A stretch of 44,002 nt of DNA. It comes from an uncultured Pelagibacteraceae bacterium. GTDB lineage: Bacteria; Pseudomonadota; Alphaproteobacteria; Pelagibacterales; Pelagibacteraceae. The translations under genes and the position numbers were made by a program. Position 1 is the stretch's first letter, and each line of letters starts with the position of its first letter. Of the stretch, positions 1,530 to 6,207 are shown piece by piece. The notes beneath the pieces were generated by a model, which did not search any database, was not told where the DNA came from, and saw only the letters and a program-made list of their open reading frames with translations. The stretch is taken from positions 1 through 44,002 of the forward strand of contig CACDSX010000008.1 of NCBI GenBank assembly GCA_902555655.1, given 5' to 3'.

Positions 1530-2864
1530 GTGAAAAAAGTAATTGTAATTAATAAAAAAATTAAATTTTTTAAAAAAAAATCAATTAATGTAGATGGAGA
1601 TAAATCTTTAAGTATTAGATTTATATTATTGTCGTCTCTTAGTAAAGGAAAGTGTATTGCTTCGAATTTATTAAGATCAGGTGATGTTAATAGTACTATT
1701 AACAGCATGAAAAAATTAGGTATAAAAATAAAAGTAAAAAACGGCTATTGTGAAGTAAATGGCAAAGGTTTATTTGGCCTTAAATTTAAAAAAAATTTAG
1801 TTTTAGATTCAGAAAATTCAGGAACAACTGCGAGATTAATATTGGCAATGTTATCTTATTCAAATCATTGGGTTAAAGTTATAGGAGATAAATCTTTAAA
1901 AAAAAGAGATATGGGAAGAGTGATTAAACCTCTCAAATTATTTGGATTAAAATTTAAAAATAATAATACAAAACTACCACTATGGATTAAAGGACCAAAA
2001 ATATTAAAGTCCATAAAGTACAATGAAAACTTAGGATCTGCTCAGTGTAAGTCTGCTATGATGATTGCTGCTTTACGGGCGAATGGAAAAACCAAATTAA
2101 AATGTTTGCCTTCAAGAAATCATACAGAATTGATGTTTAAAAATGTTTTAAAAATTCCGATTAAGCTTAAAAAAGAAAATGGTTTTGAAATTATTGAAAT
2201 TGAAGGAATGAATGAGTTTAATAAATTTAACTATAAAATTCCAGGTGATATTTCATCGGCTTCATTTTTTATAGTACTTACTTTATTATCAAAAAAAAAT
2301 GATTTAATGATTAAAAATATAAATGTTAACCCCTCCAGAATAGGTATAATTAAAATTTTAAATATGATGGGAGCTAAGATTAGAATTTTAAAAAAAAAAA
2401 ATTATAAAGGTGAGTCTACTGCAAACATTTTTATACGGTCAAATAGAAATTTACGAGGAATAAATCTCAATTCAAAATTAAACAGTTCTGCTATTGATGA
2501 ATTTTTATTAATATTTTTAGTTGCAGGTGTTTGTAAAGGAATAAGTACTTTCAAAAACCTTTCTGAGCTAAATAAAAAAGAATCTAAGAGACTAGATTGG
2601 GGTATCAAAATACTCAAAATGATGAATATTAAAACAAAAAGAATTAAAAATGATGGTGTAAAAATTTGGGGTAATCCTAATTTAAAACTTAACAAATCGT
2701 ATGTTATTAAAAATTTTTTAAAAGATCACAGAATTTTTATGGTTTCAACAATTGCAGCTCTTACTCTGGGAGGTAAGTGGAAAATCAATGATGCTAATTG
2801 TTTTAAAACTTCTTTTCCAAAATATTTAGACATATTAAATTCTCTTGGTGCAAAATATAAATGA
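1530..2864 (+). CDS. aroA: 3-phosphoshikimate 1-carboxyvinyltransferase (EPSP synthase)
   Basis: Sixth step of the shikimate pathway: shikimate-3-phosphate plus PEP gives EPSP. 444 residues, normal length. Visible motifs: KSLSIR (25-30), ENSGTTAR (95-102), KKRDMGRVIKPL (~124-135), SAQCKSA (170-176), the catalytic-aspartate region SAIDEF (D323), ESKRLDWG (351-358) and DHRIFM (399-404, usual DHRIAM). The start is GTG at 1530, preceded by AATTAGG, a weak ribosome site. The 3' end overlaps cmk by four bases (ATGA). aroB and aroK lie 33 kb away in the same window. Confidence 0.92.
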   Translation: MKKVIVINKKIKFFKKKSINVDGDKSLSIRFILLSSLSKGKCIASNLLRSGDVNSTINSMKKLGIKIKVKNGYCEVNGKGLFGLKFKKNLVLDSENSGTTARLILAMLSYSNHWVKVIGDKSLKKRDMGRVIKPLKLFGLKFKNNNTKLPLWIKGPKILKSIKYNENLGSAQCKSAMMIAALRANGKTKLKCLPSRNHTELMFKNVLKIPIKLKKENGFEIIEIEGMNEFNKFNYKIPGDISSASFFIVLTLLSKKNDLMIKNINVNPSRIGIIKILNMMGAKIRILKKKNYKGESTANIFIRSNRNLRGINLNSKLNSSAIDEFLLIFLVAGVCKGISTFKNLSELNKKESKRLDWGIKILKMMNIKTKRIKNDGVKIWGNPNLKLNKSYVIKNFLKDHRIFMVSTIAALTLGGKWKINDANCFKTSFPKYLDILNSLGAKYK

Positions 2865-3508
2865 ATAAATTAATTCAAGTAGCAATAGACTCGCCTGCAG
2901 CAGCAGGAGCAGGAACTCAAGCAAAATTAATAGCCAAACATTATAATTTACTTTATTTAGATACTGGTAAAATATACAGATTTATTGGAAATTTAAAAAT
3001 TAAGAATAAAAAAAAATTTAATTACTCTTTAATAAAAAAAAACATTAGTAAATTAAAAATTAAAAACTTACAAAGTAGAATTTTATTATCAAATAGAGTA
3101 GCATTAGAAGCTTCCATAGTTGCAAAGGATAAAAAAATAAGAAAGCTTGTTTATAGTTTTCAAATTAAATGTGCGTACAAACCTCCAAAAAAATTTAAAG
3201 GTAGTATTCTAGATGGTAGAGATATAACGAGTGTAATAATGAAAAAAGCTATGTTTAAATTTTTTATAACTGCAAATATTAAGACAAGAGCTCTAAGAAG
3301 ATACAGGGAGTTAAAACTCCTAAATAAAAAAATTACTTATAAAGAGGTGCTTAAAAGCATTAAAATACGTGATAAAAGTGATTATAATAGAAAAATATCA
3401 CCTTTGAAGAAAACAACAGATTCGATCTTGATTAATACTACAAATTTAACTAAAAGGTCATGTTTTTTAAAAATTAAACAAATTATGGATAAAAAATTAA
3501 AATATTAA
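2861..3508 (+). CDS. cmk: (d)CMP kinase family protein with an altered P-loop
   Basis: By position (aroA-cmk-rpsA) and length (215 residues) this is cytidylate kinase, which phosphorylates CMP/dCMP. Conserved parts: LDTGKIYR (~33-40; E. coli LDSGAIYR), LDGRDI and the late block RDKSDYNR-ISPLK (E. coli RDDRDRNR-VAPL). The Walker A site, usually GPxxxGKGT, reads SPAAAGAGT (11-19). The first Gly is Ser, and the phosphate-binding Lys is Ala17. The codons are clear (gga gca gga act) and the frame is intact, so this is not a frameshift. It may work through another lysine (K22 is close), or be inactive; neither is shown. TAATG junction with rpsA. Confidence 0.85.
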   Translation: MNKLIQVAIDSPAAAGAGTQAKLIAKHYNLLYLDTGKIYRFIGNLKIKNKKKFNYSLIKKNISKLKIKNLQSRILLSNRVALEASIVAKDKKIRKLVYSFQIKCAYKPPKKFKGSILDGRDITSVIMKKAMFKFFITANIKTRALRRYRELKLLNKKITYKEVLKSIKIRDKSDYNRKISPLKKTTDSILINTTNLTKRSCFLKIKQIMDKKLKY

Positions 3509-5229
3509 TGGAAATTTATAAAGACTTAACAACCTCTGCCTCTAAAGAATTTGAACAACTTCTAAACAGTCAACTTTCAAAAACTAAAATCGAAGAAGGA
3601 AAAGTTATTGATGGTAAAATCAATAAAATTACAGAAAAATTTGTATTTTTGTTTATTGAAGGATTAAAAAGTGAGCCCGTTTTAGATATAAATGAATTAA
3701 AAAGTATGGGCTGGACTGATAAGATTAAAATTGGTGAAAAAATTCCAGTTTTGCTGGAAAGGATTGAAGATAAAAATGGAGAAGTTTTAGTTTCTGCTAG
3801 TAAAGCACAAAAAATAAAAGGTTGGGATAAATTAGTTGAAGCTTATGAAAAGAATGAGCCAATAATGGGTAAAATTACATCTAAATGTAAAGGTGGATGT
3901 ATAGTTGAACATATTGACACTGGATCCTTAATGTTTTTACCAGGGTCTCAAATAAGCGATAAACCATTAAAAGACATTAGTCATTTAATGAATGAGCCTC
4001 AAAAGTTTGCATTAATTAAATTAGATAAAATAAGAGGGAACGCATGCGTTTCTAGAAGAGAAATAATTTCCTCTTTTAAAAAAGAAGATAAAGCAAAAAT
4101 AATAGAAAAATATAAAGTTGGTGACATTATTAAGGATGCAGAAGTAAAAGGATATAGTTCATTTGGTTGTTTTTTTAATGTCAATGGTGAGCTTGATGTT
4201 TTAGTGCATTTACAGGAAATCTCTTACTCTAGAGTTAATCATCCTGATGAGGTGTTTAACATTGGAGAAAAACACTCATTAAAAGTAATTTCAGTTGATA
4301 AAGAAAAATTACAGGTTGGATGTTCAGTAAAACAACTTTCACCAGATCCATTCGAACATATTGAAAACTATGAGCTAAAAAAAGTTTACAAGGTCAAAGT
4401 AACTAAAATTATGGATTTTGGTGCTTTTTGTGAATTAGAACCAGGACTAACAACACTACTACATAGTAGTGAGCTTAGTTGGACTAAAAAAAATGTTTCG
4501 GCAAAAAAAATGTTTAAAGTTGGTGATGAGATAAACTGTGTTATTACTGAAATCGATAAAGAAAAAAGAAGAGTAGCAATTTCTCACAAATTAACAAAAG
4601 ATAATCCTTTTGATATATTTGAAAAAAAATTTCCAATTGGAACAATTGTTGAAGGAAAAGTTGTTAACAAAAATGAATATTCTTTATTTGTTAATATAGA
4701 AGACTTAGAAATAGATGCTTTTTTACATTGTAATGATTTAACATATTTAAATAATGGAGAGGAAGAATTAACTAAATATAAAAAAGGTGACAGTGTTAAA
4801 GTTAAAATACTTGAAGTTAAAGTTTCAGAACAAAAAGTAAGAGTTGGTTTAAAGCAAACTCAAAGTGATCCTTTTGATTGGTTTAAAGAAAAAAAAATAA
4901 ATCAAACAATTACAGTAAAGATAATTTCTACGGATAATAAAGGCCTAGTCGTAAGACCAATAGGTTGCGAAATGGATTTTTTAATAAAAAAGTCTCAAAT
5001 TGCAATCAATGCGGCAGATTCTAGACCATCAAGATTTACAGGTGGTGAAAGTATAGACTGTGCAATATCTGATTTAGATTTAAATAAAAGAAAAGTTGGA
5101 TTAAGTATAAAGCTTTTAGAAGAGATTGAAAAAAAAGAAGCTTTAGAAAAATATGGTTCTGAGGGATCTGGTAAGAATTTACCCTTTTCATCATTATCAG
5201 AGGACCTAAAAAAAAAAGATAAGCAATAA
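3508..5229 (+). CDS. rpsA: 30S ribosomal protein S1
   Basis: 573 residues, normal length for a six-domain S1. Six OB-fold S1 repeats can be read at roughly residues 29-100, 115-185, 203-277, 290-363, 375-450 and 463-535. Repeats 3 and 4 have the clearest RNA-binding pattern (YSSFGCFFNVNGELDVLVH; MDFGAFCELEPGLTTLLH). S1 recruits structured or leader-poor mRNAs to the 30S subunit. Most genes here lack strong Shine-Dalgarno sites, so translation probably leans on S1; that is inference. The neighbours cmk upstream and ihfB downstream match the cmk-rpsA-ihfB order seen in many proteobacteria. Confidence 0.96.
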   Translation: MEIYKDLTTSASKEFEQLLNSQLSKTKIEEGKVIDGKINKITEKFVFLFIEGLKSEPVLDINELKSMGWTDKIKIGEKIPVLLERIEDKNGEVLVSASKAQKIKGWDKLVEAYEKNEPIMGKITSKCKGGCIVEHIDTGSLMFLPGSQISDKPLKDISHLMNEPQKFALIKLDKIRGNACVSRREIISSFKKEDKAKIIEKYKVGDIIKDAEVKGYSSFGCFFNVNGELDVLVHLQEISYSRVNHPDEVFNIGEKHSLKVISVDKEKLQVGCSVKQLSPDPFEHIENYELKKVYKVKVTKIMDFGAFCELEPGLTTLLHSSELSWTKKNVSAKKMFKVGDEINCVITEIDKEKRRVAISHKLTKDNPFDIFEKKFPIGTIVEGKVVNKNEYSLFVNIEDLEIDAFLHCNDLTYLNNGEEELTKYKKGDSVKVKILEVKVSEQKVRVGLKQTQSDPFDWFKEKKINQTITVKIISTDNKGLVVRPIGCEMDFLIKKSQIAINAADSRPSRFTGGESIDCAISDLDLNKRKVGLSIKLLEEIEKKEALEKYGSEGSGKNLPFSSLSEDLKKKDKQ

Positions 5230-5252: not shown

Positions 5253-5546
5253 TTGGCAATTGTAAAATCGAAGCTTTTAAAAGATTTATCAAAAAACTAC
5301 CCAAATTTTTTAAAAAAAGATTTAGAAAAATTTATTAATATCATCTTAACTGAAATTAAAAACACACTTAAAAAAGGTGAAAGGGTAGAATTAAGAGGTT
5401 TTGGAATATTCTCAACAAAGATTCAAAAAGAAAGAATTTCTAGGAACCCAAAAACAGGCGAAAAAGTCAATACTCCAAAAAAAAGAACAATTCACTTCAA
5501 AATGGCTAAAGATTTGTTTAAAAAATTGAATAATGAAAAAAAGTAA
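5253..5546 (+). CDS. ihfB: Integration host factor beta subunit / HU-family protein
   Basis: 97-residue DNA-bending protein of the HU/IHF family. The signature GFGIFSTKIQKERISRNPKTGE (shown by GFGIFS and RNPKTGE) lies at about residues 50-70; the arm that enters the minor groove is RNPKTGEKV. The position after rpsA is typical of ihfB. The start is TTG at 5253, because an in-frame TAG lies just upstream and the protein then begins AIVKSKLLKDL, the family N-terminus. The 3' end overlaps pyrF by 14 bases. An HU-type role cannot be excluded from the sequence alone. Confidence 0.87.
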   Translation: MAIVKSKLLKDLSKNYPNFLKKDLEKFINIILTEIKNTLKKGERVELRGFGIFSTKIQKERISRNPKTGEKVNTPKKRTIHFKMAKDLFKKLNNEKK

Positions 5547-6207
5547 AATATTTATTGCTTGTGATACAACAAATATATCGAAAATAAATAAAATAATCAA
5601 AAAAACAGAAAATTCAAAAATTAAAATTGGATATAAATTCGGATTAGAATTTTTAAATTCAAAAAATGGTAGAAGTTATTTATCTAAATTAAAAAAAAAA
5701 ATTATTTTTGCTGATCTTAAACTTCACGATATTCCAAATACTTGTGTCTCAGCAATTAAAGCTGTTAAAGATTTAAAAATTAATTATTTAACAATTCACA
5801 TAAGTAGCGGCCTAGAAGCATTAAAAGCTTGTAAAAAAGTTTCGGGAAAAATAAAATTAATAGGAGTTACAATTTTAACGTCTCTAGATAATAAAGCTTT
5901 AAAAGAAATTGGTTTTAAAAAAGATGTAAAAAAATTAGTTTATCATCAAGCTAAATTAGCTAATAAAGCTAAGCTTGATGGTATTGTTTGTAGTGCACAA
6001 GAGGTATCTATAGTGAAAAAAATTTTTAAAAAAGAAATAATTACTCCTGGAATTAGACTCGATTCTAAAACTTACGACCAAAAAAGAGTTTTAACTCCAA
6101 AACAAGCTTATAAAAATGGTAGCGATTGGTTGGTGATGGGAAGACCTATAACCAAAGGAAATATAAAGAAAAATGTTTTATCATTAATTAATCATTTAAA
6201 TCAATGA
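5533..6207 (+). CDS. pyrF: Orotidine 5'-phosphate decarboxylase
   Basis: Last step of UMP synthesis (OMP to UMP). 224-residue TIM barrel. The catalytic DxKxxD motif is in FADLKLHDIPNT (D61, K63, D66). Also present: KIGYKFG (~31-37), GVTILTS, TPGIR and the phosphate-binding end DWLVMGRPIT. It starts within the last 14 bases of ihfB and ends in an ATGA overlap with trpF, so it is probably read from the same transcript. Confidence 0.92.
   Translation: MKKSKIFIACDTTNISKINKIIKKTENSKIKIGYKFGLEFLNSKNGRSYLSKLKKKIIFADLKLHDIPNTCVSAIKAVKDLKINYLTIHISSGLEALKACKKVSGKIKLIGVTILTSLDNKALKEIGFKKDVKKLVYHQAKLANKAKLDGIVCSAQEVSIVKKIFKKEIITPGIRLDSKTYDQKRVLTPKQAYKNGSDWLVMGRPITKGNIKKNVLSLINHLNQ

Follow-up and report, generated by a model that had tools for sequence, protein, structure and literature searches.

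A cytidylate kinase of Pelagibacteraceae without the P-loop lysine, and a candidate replacement charge at position 37

The window analysed here is a stretch of 44,002 nucleotides (contig CACDSX010000008.1) from an uncultured Pelagibacteraceae bacterium, and close to its start it carries a cytidylate kinase gene, cmk, that overlaps both of its neighbours (Table 1). The aroA gene runs into cmk, and the cmk stop codon overlaps the start of the next open reading frame (3508-5229), a 573-residue frame that we take to be rpsA. An integration-host-factor-like gene, which scores below its cut-offs, lies between this rpsA-like frame and pyrF, and the presence of pyrF indicates that UMP is made de novo.

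The 215-residue product of cmk, which starts MNKLIQVAIDSPAAAGAGTQAKLIAKHYNLLYLDTGKIYR, is a full-length match to the PF02224 (Cytidylate_kin) profile above the curated cut-off (133.3 bits against 26, profile positions 1-205 of 211 covered), and narrowly misses the cut-off of TIGR00017, the NCBIfam equivalog cmk (131.3 against 135.55 bits). Its AlphaFold2 (AF2) model (pLDDT 91.2) has the predicted fold of a CMP kinase: a VIA-align comparison with this model returned CMP kinase entries in all of the top 17 rows (Z 25.5 to 16.2), the best structural match being 3r20 (Z 25.5, rmsd 2.0 over 200 residues). The protein resembles the bacterial (d)CMP kinases (PF02224/TIGR00017) in this full-length family match and fold, in the presence of all nine substrate arginines and aspartates tested, and in the position of its gene right after aroA. 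It differs from them in the replacement of the P-loop lysine by alanine and of the first glycine by serine and, together with its clade, in having Lys or Arg at the place of E. coli Ala38.

A different arrangement of the locus was seen in genera g2 and g4, where a cmk with a normal P-loop lies inside a single open frame of 657-669 residues (L235:283-2253, L233:675-2645, L100:1471-3477 and L223). The L235 frame, the one scanned, matches AroA as well as Cmk and is a gene fusion.

Table 1. Coordinates of the cmk locus, of the residues discussed and of pyrF within the window.
Feature	Position	Strand	Evidence or remark
aroA	1530..2864	+	TIGR01356 307.2 bits, cut-off 287.25; 4-base overlap with cmk
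cmk, lysine-free cytidylate kinase, 215 aa	2861..3508	+	PF02224 1.3e-38; AF2 model
Walker A / P-loop D10-T19, DSPAAAGAGT	2888..2917	+	read directly
Ser11 codon (tcg), replaces first P-loop Gly	2891..2893	+	Gly in 69/69 class-level Cmks read
Ala17 codon (gca), replaces P-loop Lys	2909..2911	+	Lys in 69/69 class-level Cmks read
beta2-alpha2 motif DTGKIYR, residues 34-40	2960..2980	+	Y39, R40 in 145/145 lysine-free rows
Lys37 codon (aaa), candidate replacement cation	2969..2971	+	K/R conservation; hhalign to adenylate kinase
LDGRD, residues 117-121 (D118, R120, D121)	3209..3223	+	R120, D121 in all rows with letters
R146-R147 (E. coli R157-R158)	3296..3301	+	all rows with letters there
RDKSDYNR, residues 170-177 (R170, D174, R177)	3368..3391	+	all rows with letters there
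pyrF, orotidine-5'-phosphate decarboxylase	5533..6207	+	NF001273 197.8 bits, cut-off 193

The usual Cmk loop reads DGPxxxGKGT, whereas that of the window reads DSPAAAGAGT, and the Walker A pattern GxxxxGK appears in it as SPAAAGA, its lysine absent. The original prediction had described a Cmk with an SPAAAGAGT loop in which the first glycine and the P-loop lysine are both gone; the profile match and direct reading of the loop bear this out, with Ser11 in place of the first glycine and Ala17 at the stated codon (2909-2911). By comparison with the E. coli sequence, Ala17 takes the place of Lys18 and Lys37 that of Ala38.

Lysine-free rows of the Cmk alignment were chosen by Gly18 and Gly36, not Lys17, giving 145 rows, of which 137 are distinct and three are copies of the window. 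Three rows fall outside this selection: L210 (Ser17, Thr18), and L064 and the second fragment of L212, both of which have no letters at the P-loop. Ala17 and Ser11 occur together in all 145 rows, and the same alignment holds 119 rows with Lys17. For the codon and residue counts, also over 145 rows, L210 was included and the extra window copy excluded. Codon 17 is GCT in 69 rows, GCA in 60, GCG in 10, GCC in 5 and TCC (Ser) in 1, so all four alanine codons are in use and the amino acid is maintained while the DNA drifts. L210 itself (genome G164, genus g6) shows a second form of lysine-free loop, DATAGSGSTS, with Ser17 and Ala11, and Lys37 is present.

A Cmk match was found in 258 of the 297 sampled Pelagibacterales genomes, and loop readings cover 228 of those with a match. 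Reading from the proteins, 113 of the 297 genomes have the lysine-free loop and 116 the normal one, genome G179 being counted in both. Among the loci of named genomes 30 of 33 carry DSPAAAGAG[T/S]; the other three are a gene cut off before the loop (L064) and two distant normal-loop enzymes (L066 and L067). At the DNA level, a pattern for xPAA[A/G]GAG with a loosely defined Ser as its first codon matched 103 of the 297 genomes, every one belonging to the genus of the window; the reversed control gave no tabulated match in the same set. Protein reading adds genus g6 to the lysine-free form (L208, L209, L210).

Beyond the order, a Cmk match was present in 281 of 318 sampled genomes of the class, and Lys17 and Gly11 were found in all 69 loops read there (from the 29 top-ranked matches other than the window and from 40 lower-ranked ones). 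Outside the class the loops compared were those of L066, L067 and E. coli. A looser lysine-free pattern matched 36 places, spread over 32 of 385 class genomes (that of the window among them), against about 24 control matches, and none of the 35 places other than the window lay inside a Cmk frame (19 + 16 loci checked). Lysine is present in every Cmk P-loop read outside the lysine-free clade.

The gene is single copy in nearly all cases, with one Cmk match in 255 of the 258 genomes that have any. The 39 order genomes with no match, a group that includes 15 of the 150 better ones, could be explained by incomplete assemblies. Several individual genomes depart from the usual state: a single contig of G241 carries a pair of lysine-free cmk genes (L083/L202), a single contig of G179 carries a lysine-free and a normal copy (L207/L247), a frame break interrupts the cmk of G159 (L212), the cmk of G233 (L205) lies in a shorter open frame, and a second match in G088 (G088:C2:115698-116333) contains 15 internal stops.

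Lysine-free rows form one clade (SH-aLRT 98 with 53 rows; 99/95 with 11 rows, in an analysis whose bootstrap had not settled). Normal-loop clades occur in the window's genus and family too. The question of whether Ala17 is fixed across SAR11 Cmks, posed in the original prediction, is answered by fixation within one clade (145 of 145 rows), other clades of the order keeping the lysine. Relatives with a normal GKGT, named there as evidence that would count against the finding, do exist in the same genus and family, but they lie outside the clade and none lies inside it, and the finding stands. Some relatives have both lysines, 17 and 37 (L012, L033, L211). A constraint that joined the lysine-free rows and genus g3, which has both lysines, in one clade was not rejected (p-AU 0.577): the constrained tree scored higher than the unconstrained tree, by 5.77 log units, and either state may be ancestral.

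Compared with six relatives, the window gene has a dN/dS of 0.077-0.154 alongside strong synonymous divergence (dS 0.66-1.22). We take the CMP- and phosphate-binding residues to be E. coli R41, R110, R131, D132, R157, R158, R181, D185 and R188. All nine are conserved in the 145 lysine-free rows, with one incomplete row gapped at eight of the nine. Neither a relaxation of constraint nor the loss of a further catalytic residue was seen in the six pairs and the 145 rows. Purifying selection, together with substrate-binding arginines and aspartates that do not vary, speaks against a dead enzyme. In the T. thermophilus CMP kinase (PMC7259600), Lys15 bridges the beta-phosphates of ADP and CDP, and Arg126, Arg153 and Arg171 lie at the phosphates. 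Arginines at the places taken as equivalent to these three appear to be kept in the lysine-free enzymes, and the LDGRD residues may be assigned roles by correspondence with Glu124, Arg126 and Asp127 as described in the same paper.

The candidate for a replacement charge, a residue that the original prediction did not name, is position 37. It is Lys in 122, Arg in 21 and Leu in 2 of the 145 lysine-free rows (K/R in 143), and the charge is preserved by both lysine codons and two arginine codon families (AAA 108, AAG 14, CGN 14, AGA 7). The 119 normal-loop rows have Leu in 75, Lys in 20, Arg in 9, Ala in 5 and others in the remainder; 29 therefore carry K/R37, all but three of them from the same order. 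In the class sample the figure is 10 of 69 (K 5, R 5), and within the family's own normal-loop clades the position varies among L, K, S, T, M and A. Position 37 is one of several that are rich in Lys or Arg in the lysine-free clade, others being for example 183, 184, 206 and 212. Two related loci, L094 (G155) and L170 (G122), combine Leu37 with Ala17, and no clear replacement residue was seen in them; K/R37 is therefore not strictly required. As the lysine was lost once, the association of Ala17 with K/R37 rests on one clade. Changes from K/R to another residue at 37 number 1 in the lysine-free clade against 7 in the rest of the tree (tree lengths 14.57 and 31.56), and the coupling of Ala17 and K/R37 on the tree is not significant (binomial P=0.145).

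An hhalign comparison of the lysine-free family with the adenylate kinase of this genome gave a gapless alignment of 34 columns (probability 91.3, E 9.3e-7), in which Ala17 falls on the adenylate kinase P-loop lysine and Lys37 on the aspartate of its STGD motif. That aspartate lies near the Mg-phosphate site in adenylate kinases. Adenylate kinase (PF00406) is thus like Cmk in the gapless match from P-loop to beta2-alpha2 and in the type of reaction, but that of this genome keeps the P-loop lysine and has Asp where the window's Cmk has Lys37. Mapping Lys37 onto Asp32 of CoaE, as described in PMC3019153, was rejected as evidence on distance, the motif being alignable in two registers. An hhalign run with the window frame labelled CoaE gave no useful match. 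That frame reads like a shikimate kinase, which we presume it to be.

Other nucleotide kinases were surveyed in six genomes with a lysine-free Cmk, five of them 99-100% complete. Each has one PF00406 (ADK) match above the cut-off plus partial matches below it. PF13189 (Cytidylate_kin2) picked out Cmk itself and partial matches in the six genomes, and no convincing separate protein; a 173-residue frame of G026 exceeded its cut-off only with the pieces summed and was discarded as a Cytidylate_kin2 (from its length we take it for a shikimate kinase). PyrH gave no match above the cut-off in the same six genomes, five of which had weak matches to frames of ~407 and 382 residues. A second CMP kinase was not found in the six genomes searched. 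As a separate observation, the adenylate kinase frames (L268-L273) are 187-189 residues long in four genomes and 213 in two, so that one genus perhaps holds two adenylate kinase types.

The absence of PyrH extends to the whole family. TIGR02075 scored above its cut-off in none of the 244 genomes of the window's family (f1), eleven single-contig genomes included, and in 35 of the 53 genomes of the sister family f2. The f1 matches are weak (best about 3e-13) and those listed are frames of about 330-424 residues; judging by length, we take these for aspartokinase, and frames of about 380 residues matched in the six-genome survey for glutamate kinase. We put the PyrH gaps among f2 genomes down to incompleteness, but two that are at least 90% complete (G012 and G021) also have no match. 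By coordinates pyrH stands directly before frr in three f2 genomes, and f2 retains the order tsf-pyrH-frr. In the seven f1 loci read of ten (L332-L334, L336, L340, L342 and L343) a tsf-like frame, presumably tsf, stands directly before frr with nothing between. The genome of the window is 84% complete and the frr region is missing from its assembly, its own tsf-frr junction being unseen. Normal-loop f1 genomes are also without PyrH, and the loss of pyrH is therefore not tied to the loss of the lysine.

On balance we lean slightly towards a functional enzyme of the bacterial Cmk family, acting on pyrimidine nucleoside monophosphates, in which the P-loop lysine has been lost and Lys/Arg37 provides the bridging charge. 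In such an enzyme the backbone amides of the loop would still hold the ATP phosphates, and arginines 40, 120, 146/147, 170 and 177 would hold CMP and the moving phosphate. The charge that normally spans the two phosphates, donor and acceptor (from Lys15 in T. thermophilus and from Lys18 in E. coli), would be supplied by Lys/Arg37, which would sit in the opening turn of the helix that follows strand 2 and face the same phosphate site, the net effect being that lysine and alanine are swapped within one active site. Because of the places given by hhalign, the T. thermophilus geometry and the retained arginines, this swap is the simplest working model; we infer the enzymatic activity, the reach of residue 37 to the phosphates and, by alignment, the roles of the arginines. 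Of the two options put forward in the original prediction, that catalysis uses a different residue is accordingly the better supported, with Lys/Arg37 as the candidate. The arrangement would work like that of the WNK ('with no lysine') protein kinases, in which a different strand provides the catalytic lysine that the usual position lacks; the folds are unrelated, and the relocation was shown by structure there and is proposed from alignments for Cmk.

A serious rival to replacement by residue 37 is that the P-loop lysine is simply dispensable, the backbone amides, Mg2+ and the arginine ring being enough and Lys/Arg37 being inherited with no catalytic role. L094 and L170, uncharged at both positions, would fit this explanation, as would the K/R37 of normal-loop relatives and the non-significant coupling test. 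The mycobacterial CoaE study (PMC3019153) also reports that K14A lost only 19% of kcat, despite which Lys14 is given a role in ATP binding. Against it, K/R37 persists in 143 of 145 rows despite the synonymous divergence of the six pairs, the same position varies in the family's normal-loop clades, and lysine is found in every P-loop read outside the clade. We regard dispensability as unlikely overall, but as deserving real weight. A different phosphate donor or mechanism, with a loop that need not neutralise a triphosphate, would account for the replacement of both the first glycine and the lysine in every lysine-free row read; the fold and the conserved arginines, however, match CMP kinases that use ATP, and with no positive support this reading is quite improbable.

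We consider it very improbable that the protein has become a pseudokinase or regulator while another kinase makes CDP, which was the second option of the original prediction. The residue that usually defines a P-loop is gone and the score lies just below the NCBIfam cmk cut-off, but the nine substrate residues of the active site are invariant, the dN/dS values are low, and Cmk is the single copy in 255 of 258 genomes with a match. The second CMP or UMP kinase that this option called for was not found either: the family lacks PyrH, and the six genomes tested yielded no further member of a CMP kinase family. A sequencing or assembly error at codon 17, also considered at the outset, has a practically negligible chance of being the cause, error and accident alike being ruled out by the recurrence of the loss, seen in 113 of the sampled genomes and in 30 records of named genomes (sets that may overlap), and by the four alanine codons.

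The same Cmk may also phosphorylate UMP and so serve all of family f1 as its UMP kinase, because PyrH is missing, UMP is made de novo and a CMP kinase can suppress the loss of PyrH. According to PMC3603445, cells that would die without PyrH can be rescued by over-expression of CMP kinase, suggesting that this enzyme has a low activity on UMP. No alteration towards uracil was found in the cytosine-reading residues, Asp121 being unchanged, and Thr occupies position 35 in 144 of 145 lysine-free rows and in 64 of 69 class rows. A UMP kinase of another family, unrecognised in f1, is a possible alternative. The fullest version of the scenario, about which we are doubtful while holding it possible, is that the Pelagibacteraceae Cmk replaced PyrH as the single UMP/CMP kinase, and that one clade then moved the catalytic lysine to position 37, the place of the adenylate kinase aspartate, and works without the Walker A lysine.

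The lysine-free Cmk is a variant of a known enzyme family, to which we would add, as things inferred, the relocated charge and the UMP role. No report of it or of the loss of pyrH in SAR11 was present among the literature matches listed (titles and abstract starts of open-licence papers), a weak hint that both may be new. PMC9599734 treats the lysine of Walker A as a reference residue that P-loop enzymes strictly conserve. In the very abundant ocean bacteria studied here, a core kinase present in single copy has lost that lysine and is apparently still active, and it allows a direct test of whether the place of the lysine is important or only its charge. With the UMP kinase missing, one step of pyrimidine synthesis in SAR11 is left unassigned, and Cmk is the obvious candidate for it.
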